A stretch of DNA of 64,000 bases, taken from contig NZ_RCDA01000001.1 of assembly GCF_003664325.1 (NCBI RefSeq), positions 1,054,001 through 1,118,000 of the forward strand, in the 5' to 3' direction. A program made the position numbers and the translations under genes. Numbering within the stretch: position 1 is the stretch's first letter; every line of letters begins with the position of its first letter. Below the pieces are notes generated by a model that was given only the letters and a program-made list of their open reading frames with translations, was not told the origin of the DNA and did no database searches. Positions 40,670 to 43,191 of the stretch are shown one piece after another. The DNA is from Alkalispirillum mobile. Its GTDB lineage: Bacteria > Pseudomonadota > Gammaproteobacteria > Nitrococcales > Halorhodospiraceae.

Positions 40670-41935
40670 ATGAGCGAAACCCCGTGGACCGATCCCATGC
40701 CCGAAGCGCAGTTCGACCTGATGCGGCGCATTCTTGCGGCACCCAGCCCGGTGGGGCTGGAGGGCGCCATGACCTACGGCGTACTCAAACCCCACTTCGA
40801 GCAGTTCGCGCCGACCAACTGGCACCTGCACCAGTTCAAGGGGCATGCCGGGGTGGTGCTGGATACCCATCCGGGGCGGGATGACCTGTTCAAGGTCATG
40901 GTGATCGGCCACGCGGACAAGATCCGCATGCAGGTCCGCTCCATCGGCGATGACGGCAAGATCTGGATCAACACCGACGCCTTTCTGCCCAATGTGCTGG
41001 TGGGCCACGAGGTCACGCTCTTCAGCGAAGACCCGGAGGCGCCGGGCCAGTACCGGCGCATCGAGGGCGGCACGGTGGAGGCGCTGGGCGCCATCCACTT
41101 CTCCGACCCGAAGCAGCGCACCGGCGAACAGGGCATAAAGAAAGAGCAGATCTACCTGGACCTGCAAATCCACGGCGAGAACAAAAAGCAGCAGGTGGAG
41201 AACCTGGGCGTCCGGCCGGGCGATTCGATCCTCTTCAACCGGCCCATTCGCCACGGCTTCAGCCCGGATACCTTCTACGGCGCCTATCTGGACAACGGCC
41301 TGGGCTGCTTTGTTACCGCCGAGGTCGCCCGGCTGATCGCCGAGGCGGGTGGCACGGAGAAAGTCCGCGTGATGTTCGCCATCGCCAGCTACGAGGAGAT
41401 CGGCCGCTTCGGCAGCCGCGTACTGGCCGGCGAGCTCAAGCCGGATGCGATCATCGCCGTGGACGTGAACCACGACTACGTGGCCGCGCCCGGCATCGGC
41501 GACCGCCGCATGCAGCCGCTGGAGATGGGCAAGGGCTTCACCCTCTCGGTGGGTTCCGTGGCCAGCGAGCAGCTCAACCGGGTCATCGAGCACACCGCCA
41601 GGGAGAAAGGGATCCCGGTACAGCGGGATGTGGTGGGCAATGACACCGGCACCGATGGCATGGCCGGCGTGCTGGCCTCCGTAGACTGTGTGGCCACCTC
41701 TGTCGGCTTTCCGATCCGCAACATGCACACCATCTCGGAGACCGCCAACACCCGCGACGTGGTAGCGGCCATTCACGCCATCACCGACAGCCTGCAGGCG
41801 CTGGATGCCCTGGACGACCCGCACCGGGAGTTCCTGGACAACCACCCGCGGCTGGACGAGGCAGACGCTCTGGGCCACCAGGGCGACAAGAAACCCGAGG
41901 GCAAAACGGGCGAAACCGGGTCGGGCGAGTCATGA
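40670..41935 (+). CDS. M42-family metallopeptidase
   Basis: A 421-residue dinuclear-metal aminopeptidase of the glutamyl aminopeptidase/TET/FrvX type. Likely metal ligands are in IGHADKIRMQV (H-x-D), AYLDNGLGCF (bridging Asp), IASYEEIGRFGS (catalytic and ligand Glu), VDVNHDY and NMHTISETAN (His). These match the usual HxD, DDxxG, EEVG and MHSxxE motifs with small changes. A Gly/Lys-rich tail follows residue 395. Its stop overlaps the photolyase-like start. Confidence 0.85.
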   Translation: MSETPWTDPMPEAQFDLMRRILAAPSPVGLEGAMTYGVLKPHFEQFAPTNWHLHQFKGHAGVVLDTHPGRDDLFKVMVIGHADKIRMQVRSIGDDGKIWINTDAFLPNVLVGHEVTLFSEDPEAPGQYRRIEGGTVEALGAIHFSDPKQRTGEQGIKKEQIYLDLQIHGENKKQQVENLGVRPGDSILFNRPIRHGFSPDTFYGAYLDNGLGCFVTAEVARLIAEAGGTEKVRVMFAIASYEEIGRFGSRVLAGELKPDAIIAVDVNHDYVAAPGIGDRRMQPLEMGKGFTLSVGSVASEQLNRVIEHTAREKGIPVQRDVVGNDTGTDGMAGVLASVDCVATSVGFPIRNMHTISETANTRDVVAAIHAITDSLQALDALDDPHREFLDNHPRLDEADALGHQGDKKPEGKTGETGSGES

Positions 41936-43191
41936 CCCGACCCGGGGGCGGGACCGTGACCGCACCGGCGGATACGCTGTTCCCGCCCAGCCGGGCGGAG
42001 GCTCTTCGGAGGCTGCGGGGCTTTGTCCCCCATGCCGGTCAGGCCTATGCCGCCGACCGAAACCACGATGCGGGGCCAAGCCTTCGGGAGAACGTCTCCA
42101 TGGTCTCGCCCTACATCCGCCACCGCGTGATCACCGAGCGGGAGGTCGTGGCAACCACCCTGCAACACCATTCCCCGGATGCCGCCGAGAAGTTCATTCA
42201 GGAGGTGTTCTGGCGCACCTACTGGAAGGGCTGGCTGCAGATGCGTCCCCAGGTCTGGGACAGCTATCTCGAGGAGCTCGCAGCCGAGCGGTCGCGCCTG
42301 GCGACCGAAAACGCTCTGTCCAATAGCGTGAATCGCGCCGAATCAGGGCTGACAGGCATTGGGGGCTTCGACGACTGGGCCCGGGAGCTGGTGCAGACCG
42401 GCTACCTGCACAATCACGCCCGCATGTGGTTCGCTTCCATCTGGGTCTTCACCCTGAGACTGCCCTGGACACTGGGTGCGGACTTCTTCCTGCGCCACCT
42501 GTTGGATGCCGACCCAGCCTCCAACACGCTGGGCTGGCGATGGGTGGCCGGCATCCAGACCCCGGGCAAAACCTACCGGGCGACACCCGACAACATCGCG
42601 CGGTTCACGAGCGGGCGGTACCGGCCGGTCGGGCTTGCGGAGACCGCCGAGCCCATTCGGCAGGAAACACCGCCCAAGCCGACGCCGCTGAAGGCACCGG
42701 CCCAACCACCCGCCGCCGGCCCTGCCCTGCTGTTATTGCACGGAGATGACCTGCGGGGCGATGAGCTGATCCCTCCCGGCACGGAGATCCGCGCCGTGGC
42801 GGTTGCCGCCGCCGGGCACCCGGACACCCCCTGGCCCTTCGGCGAAAGGGCCAGGGACTTCGTCAACAATCTGGTCGCGGATGCCGTGGAGCGGCTGAAG
42901 CGCGAGGGCCAACCGGCGGTGGCACGGATGCAGGCACTATCCGCTGAGGCATTGCGGTTGCAATGCCAGCAGGCCGGCGTGCGAACCGTTATCACGCCGG
43001 AGGCCCCGGTAGGGCCCATTGCGGAGGGCCTGCGCCGGGTCACCGATGTGTTGTCCACCGAGGGGATTGGAGTGATCCAGCTGCGCAGGACGTGGGACCA
43101 CCTCGCCTGGCCACACGCCACCCACGGGTTTTTCCGCTTCCGGCGACGGATACCGGAGCTGCTCCGCCAGAACGGGCTTATCAGGTCCTGA
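41932..43191 (+). CDS. Photolyase/cryptochrome-like FAD protein with inverted domain order
   Basis: A 419-residue protein. The FAD-binding half comes first (residues about 50-230). It has FIQEVFWRTYWKGW, GLTGIGGFDDWARELVQTG, YLHNHARMWFASIW, DADPASNTLGWRWVAG, all landmarks of the photolyase FAD domain, including the NHARM and N-T-x-GW motifs. A Pro-rich linker (240-262) leads to a Rossmann-like part starting ALLLLHGDDL and ending near RRRIPELL. In normal photolyases the alpha/beta domain is N-terminal. Whether it repairs DNA or senses light is open. Confidence 0.8.
   Translation: MTRPGGGTVTAPADTLFPPSRAEALRRLRGFVPHAGQAYAADRNHDAGPSLRENVSMVSPYIRHRVITEREVVATTLQHHSPDAAEKFIQEVFWRTYWKGWLQMRPQVWDSYLEELAAERSRLATENALSNSVNRAESGLTGIGGFDDWARELVQTGYLHNHARMWFASIWVFTLRLPWTLGADFFLRHLLDADPASNTLGWRWVAGIQTPGKTYRATPDNIARFTSGRYRPVGLAETAEPIRQETPPKPTPLKAPAQPPAAGPALLLLHGDDLRGDELIPPGTEIRAVAVAAAGHPDTPWPFGERARDFVNNLVADAVERLKREGQPAVARMQALSAEALRLQCQQAGVRTVITPEAPVGPIAEGLRRVTDVLSTEGIGVIQLRRTWDHLAWPHATHGFFRFRRRIPELLRQNGLIRS

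Follow-up and report, generated by a model that had tools for sequence, protein, structure and literature searches.

Within a window of 64,000 nucleotides from Alkalispirillum mobile (the whole stretch of DNA that was analysed), we identified a photolyase whose domains stand in reversed order: the FAD-binding half comes first, and an alpha/beta domain follows it after a Pro-rich linker. Taken as a whole, the evidence is best explained by membership of the NewPHL class, a reading to which we assign a probability of about 0.88. The domain order is not novel, because the protein belongs to a bacterial class of inverted-topology photolyases described in 2020. NewPHL is reported to have been introduced by Emmerich et al. 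2020 as an inverted-topology class of single-strand CPD photolyases. The most likely function of the window protein is accordingly predicted to be light-driven CPD repair in single-stranded DNA. An earlier note on this DNA had proposed a circular permutation or a new fusion; the reversed order is borne out by predicted structure and by profiles, and the newness is not, as NewPHL, Phr6 and Phr7 had already been described.

The catalytic half is recognizable from sequence. In a Pfam search, FAD_binding_7 (PF03441) matched at residues 88–214 (E = 6e-21) and the N-terminal DNA_photolyase domain was absent; a weak PF00875 match (E = 0.078) is confined to the C-terminal half. Four motifs, FWRTYW (93–98), TGIGGFDDW (141–149), NHARMW (161–166) and NTLGWRW (198–204), lie at residues 93–204, where the earlier note had put the FAD landmarks (90–205). 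An AF2 model of the whole protein, built on the family alignment (mean pLDDT 88, pTM 0.88), is all-helical up to about residue 225 and continues through an irregular Pro-rich linker into a five-stranded alpha/beta domain at residues 264–413. Pfam and the model thus agree with the layout first noticed in the letters, with the FAD half in front and a Rossmann-like part at the C terminus behind the linker. In VIA, residues 7–244 of the model align with the FAD domains of photolyases at Z scores of about 15–17.6 over 200–225 residues, covering the canonical stretch from about residue 200 onwards (200–460). In a sequence search of the PDB, the significant matches were canonical photolyases and cryptochromes only, so a first structure of the class would be informative.

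Table 1. Positions of the photolyase, its parts and its neighbours in the window
Feature	Position	Strand	Remarks
M42-family aminopeptidase-like gene	40649–41935	+	Stop overlaps photolyase start
Inverted-topology photolyase (NewPHL class, probable)	41932–43191	+	419 aa; ATG overlaps upstream stop (ATGA)
FAD-binding catalytic half, first in order	41977–42606	+	Residues about 16–225; PF03441, VIA, 1owl residue map
Pro-rich linker	42640–42720	+	Residues about 237–263; sequence; no regular structure in AF2 model
C-terminal alpha/beta domain	42721–43170	+	Residues 264–413; AF2, Foldseek, VIA, hhalign chain
Short LOV-type protein	44116–44574	−	152 aa; GHNCRFLQGED motif; YtvA-like 7e-46, below cut-off
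SRPBCC/polyketide-cyclase-like protein	44596–45075	−	Adjoins LOV gene; possibly same transcription unit

Active-site residues were mapped from 1owl onto the window protein, and the following are kept: Y228 (Y39 in the window protein), S241 (S56), S244 (S59), E283 (E91), W286 (W94), R287 (R95), N349 (N161), M353 (M165), D380 (D192), D382 (D194) and N386 (N198). Whereas (6-4) enzymes have His at the 353 position, the Met found here points to CPD as the predicted substrate. In the Trp chain, the proximal W390 (W202) and the middle W367 (W179) are retained and the distal W314 corresponds to L123; the mapping indicates a Trp dyad, not a triad. A Trp dyad has been reported for the NewPHL of Dinoroseobacter shibae (PMC8948257). 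Class I CPD photolyases (1owl, 1dnp and 1iqr) resemble the window protein in the FAD half and in the active-site residues but carry the alpha/beta domain first and have a Trp triad. The only cysteine, C345, lies in the C-terminal half and none in the FAD half, so no Fe–S cluster is expected.

The C-terminal part was also predicted alone by AF2 (pLDDT 83). In comparisons of this model with known structures, the best 26 VIA rows were all photolyases or cryptochromes, with Z scores up to 11.7 over 145 residues, and the alignments mostly begin at the first residues of the photolyase and cryptochrome chains. Comparison with the photolyase N-domain, the check proposed in the earlier note, therefore favours kinship, with photolyases and cryptochromes matching best; an unrelated C-terminal fold was looked for, and VIA, Foldseek and the profile chain described below gave the opposite. 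Sequence searches gave weaker evidence: the C-terminal half of the window protein alone had no significant Pfam match, a profile of the C-terminal domain matched no PDB sequence significantly, and PF00875 was found in one of 42 family members (E = 0.014). A Pfam match to BLH_phosphatase in 8 of the 42 (best 0.00036) was judged to be a chance alpha/beta resemblance.

Direct hhalign comparison of the window C-terminal family with canonical antenna domains was weak (probability 25–42%), so Fe–S and split inverted forms are needed as a bridge to those domains. The alpha/beta domains of three such forms matched canonical antenna domains (hhalign E = 1.1e-7, probability 94%), and the same three-member set matched the window C-terminal family (E = 3.6e-6, probability 87.5%). 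This profile chain spans the complete alpha/beta domain and includes a shared end motif: the window domain ends in GFFRFRRRIPELL, which aligns with its canonical counterpart, RAFTPFWRA. By way of this bridge and the modelled fold, the window C-terminal domain is best read as a relocated homologue of the photolyase N-terminal antenna domain, moved rather than unrelated. Among the inverted relatives, the one from Deinococcus (L131) is a fused protein of 456 aa whose C-terminal domain has a PF00875 match (6e-5) that begins at profile position 2. Others are split. Locus L119 has an FAD gene at 1306–2190 and a separate, overlapping alpha/beta frame downstream at 2187–2621, and L135 has a split pair (1911–3266 and 1477–1911) in which the alpha/beta frame is again downstream of, and overlaps, the FAD gene. 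Both loci are proteobacterial, and their two overlapping frames, one per half, resemble cyanobacterial phr4/phr5. The rearrangement could have arisen by circular permutation, or by the two halves separating and fusing anew, and split-gene relatives do exist. Of the papers that a literature search on circular permutation in photolyases listed, none looked relevant from its title or abstract. On the Persicobacter plasmid pPP1 (L133), a divergent inverted-type FAD protein (2953–4128) is followed by an overlapping photolyase/cryptochrome-like gene (4061–5584) that looks canonical in its domain order.

In a tree of FAD halves, the window protein and an inverted D. shibae protein fall in one clade (99/98), the Fe–S and split forms make up a neighbouring group (97/81) and canonical photolyases stand apart, with a long-branch warning on the deep joins. 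The D. shibae homologue has 405 aa and 45% identity to the window protein over residues 12–416, its genome having been assigned to D. shibae through a plasmid and not by name. It is the best match of the window protein within that genome (G363), which we took as D. shibae because contig 2 matches a segment of plasmid pDSHI01 (100%, at the record's own coordinates). NewPHLs and SPLs, two names that are treated together in PMC13274461, repair CPDs in single-stranded DNA and have inverted topology, and include the D. shibae member A8LJA9. PMC9426592 credits the members from D. shibae and Methylobacterium to Emmerich 2020. The same work, a 2022 mBio study of Synechococcus photolyases, describes reversed order in Phr6 and the split Phr4/Phr5, with Fe–S cysteines in Phr4 and Phr6, and places Phr7 of picocyanobacteria (Prochlorococcus), which has no Fe–S cysteines, in the NewPHL class (PMC9426592). 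Like the NewPHL class (D. shibae, Phr7), the window protein has an N-terminal FAD half and a C-terminal second domain, a Trp dyad and no Fe–S cysteines; it differs in its organism, in being nearest to Thioalkalivibrio sequences and in that its function is predicted. SPL was described as a CPD repair class without the N-terminal alpha/beta domain (Xu et al. 2021; PMC9649867), whereas the window protein does have an alpha/beta domain, at the C terminus. Against the cryptochrome DASH model it scored 66.6 bits, compared with a curated cut-off of 317.

Two other accounts of the protein's make-up deserve weighing. The C-terminal half might be an unrelated Rossmann-like domain, for example that of a universal stress protein, fused to a photolyase FAD half. 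Universal stress proteins do match the C-terminal model, with some interspersed among the high-ranking photolyases and cryptochromes in Foldseek, and direct sequence evidence in the window protein is weak; yet in VIA they rank below (Z of 9.9 or less) the photolyases that top the list (Z 10–11.7), many of whose matches take in the entire domain, terminal helices included. With the profile chain running through the complete domain to the same end motif, and with the PF00875 match of the Deinococcus relative, we regard such a fusion as very improbable. Less probable still, to the point of being nearly negligible, is that the protein is an Fe–S inverted photolyase (Phr4/5, Phr6 or Fe–S SPL) and not a NewPHL. 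Phr6 has the same inverted order (PMC9426592), and reversed order and a homologous alpha/beta domain are common to the window protein, Phr6, the split Phr4/Phr5 (Synechococcus and Cyanobium), Deinococcus L131, L119 and L135; in the tree, the Fe–S type occupies the neighbouring clade. However, the Phr4/Phr6 type forms a separate clade, is often encoded by two genes and has four cysteines in the FAD half (PMC9426592), where the window protein has none.

Homologues of the NewPHL-type window protein have a wide but patchy distribution. The nearest sequences are from Thioalkalivibrio (62–64% identity), and further homologues occur in many Alphaproteobacteria, Microbacteriaceae and others; in a genome collection, relatives were encoded in 590 stretches. 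In a set of 59 genomes of relatives, a match along the full length (43–50% identity) was present in 18 others, and in one more it was divided between two contig pieces; the Thioalkalivibrio and other sequences just named come from beyond this set. Matches at E = 1e-40 or better were found in 8 of 274 sampled gammaproteobacterial genomes, its own included, and the inverted protein was not found in the 11 other genomes searched of its own family. The inverted order runs from end to end in Alphaproteobacteria, Gammaproteobacteria, Actinomycetota and others, and in alignments of 19 and 42 proteins each half has residues that are invariant. The domain order is shared by 41 full-length homologues and is seen across phyla, which rules out an assembly error or a frameshift as its source.

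In the mechanism that we propose, FAD and the lesion would both be bound by the helical half; behind it, at the C terminus, sits the alpha/beta half, which canonical photolyases carry N-terminally as their antenna domain. Reduced FAD, once excited by blue or near-UV light, would split a cyclobutane pyrimidine dimer by giving it an electron, with single-stranded DNA as the most likely substrate. Photoreduction of FAD could proceed through the short Trp chain (W202 and W179), and the C-terminal domain may carry an antenna chromophore or serve only as a cover over the FAD site. FAD binding and specificity for CPDs and for single strands are inferred for the window protein. Alternatively, it could be a cryptochrome-like light sensor and not a repair enzyme, perhaps working together with the short LOV protein whose gene lies on the opposite strand, about 900 bases downstream. 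The photolyase family includes many sensors, and the neighbour is a LOV-type PAS protein with the motif listed in Table 1. But E91, W94, N161 and M165, the active-site residues of CPD type, are all retained, those members of the class that have been characterised are CPD repair enzymes (PMC9426592), and a LOV match appeared at just one other of about 100 related loci (L070, Ruegeria), so that the neighbour is not conserved; we consider a sensor unlikely.

For CPD photolyases of the NewPHL type, the present analysis makes a modest addition, namely evidence that in this class the antenna domain was relocated, not lost, together with split-gene relatives. The window protein adds one more member to a class showing that photolyase domains can function in either order. 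One tentative possibility is that the whole inverted group (NewPHL, SPL, Phr6 and split Phr4/5) represents a true rearrangement of the two-domain photolyase, whose antenna domain was shifted and neither lost nor replaced, by way of split overlapping genes or yielding them, and may still bind an antenna chromophore. If true, this would undercut the view of 'short' enzymes as an ancestor that predates the gain of the antenna domain. The bridge that Fe–S-type and split relatives provide between the C-terminal and canonical antenna domains bears on whether short photolyases are ancestral or derived.

No conserved gene neighbourhood of the photolyase was found across about 100 related loci. Elsewhere in the genome there are two other FAD_binding_7 proteins and one protein with the DPRP domain of Fe–S (6-4) photolyases; no protein scores above the curated cut-off for cryptochrome DASH. 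This fits a proposal, said to come from Emmerich et al. 2020, that NewPHL substitutes for DASH. For the gene immediately upstream of the photolyase, every NCBIfam equivalog match is far below its cut-off. The overlap between its stop codon and the photolyase start suggests translational coupling.
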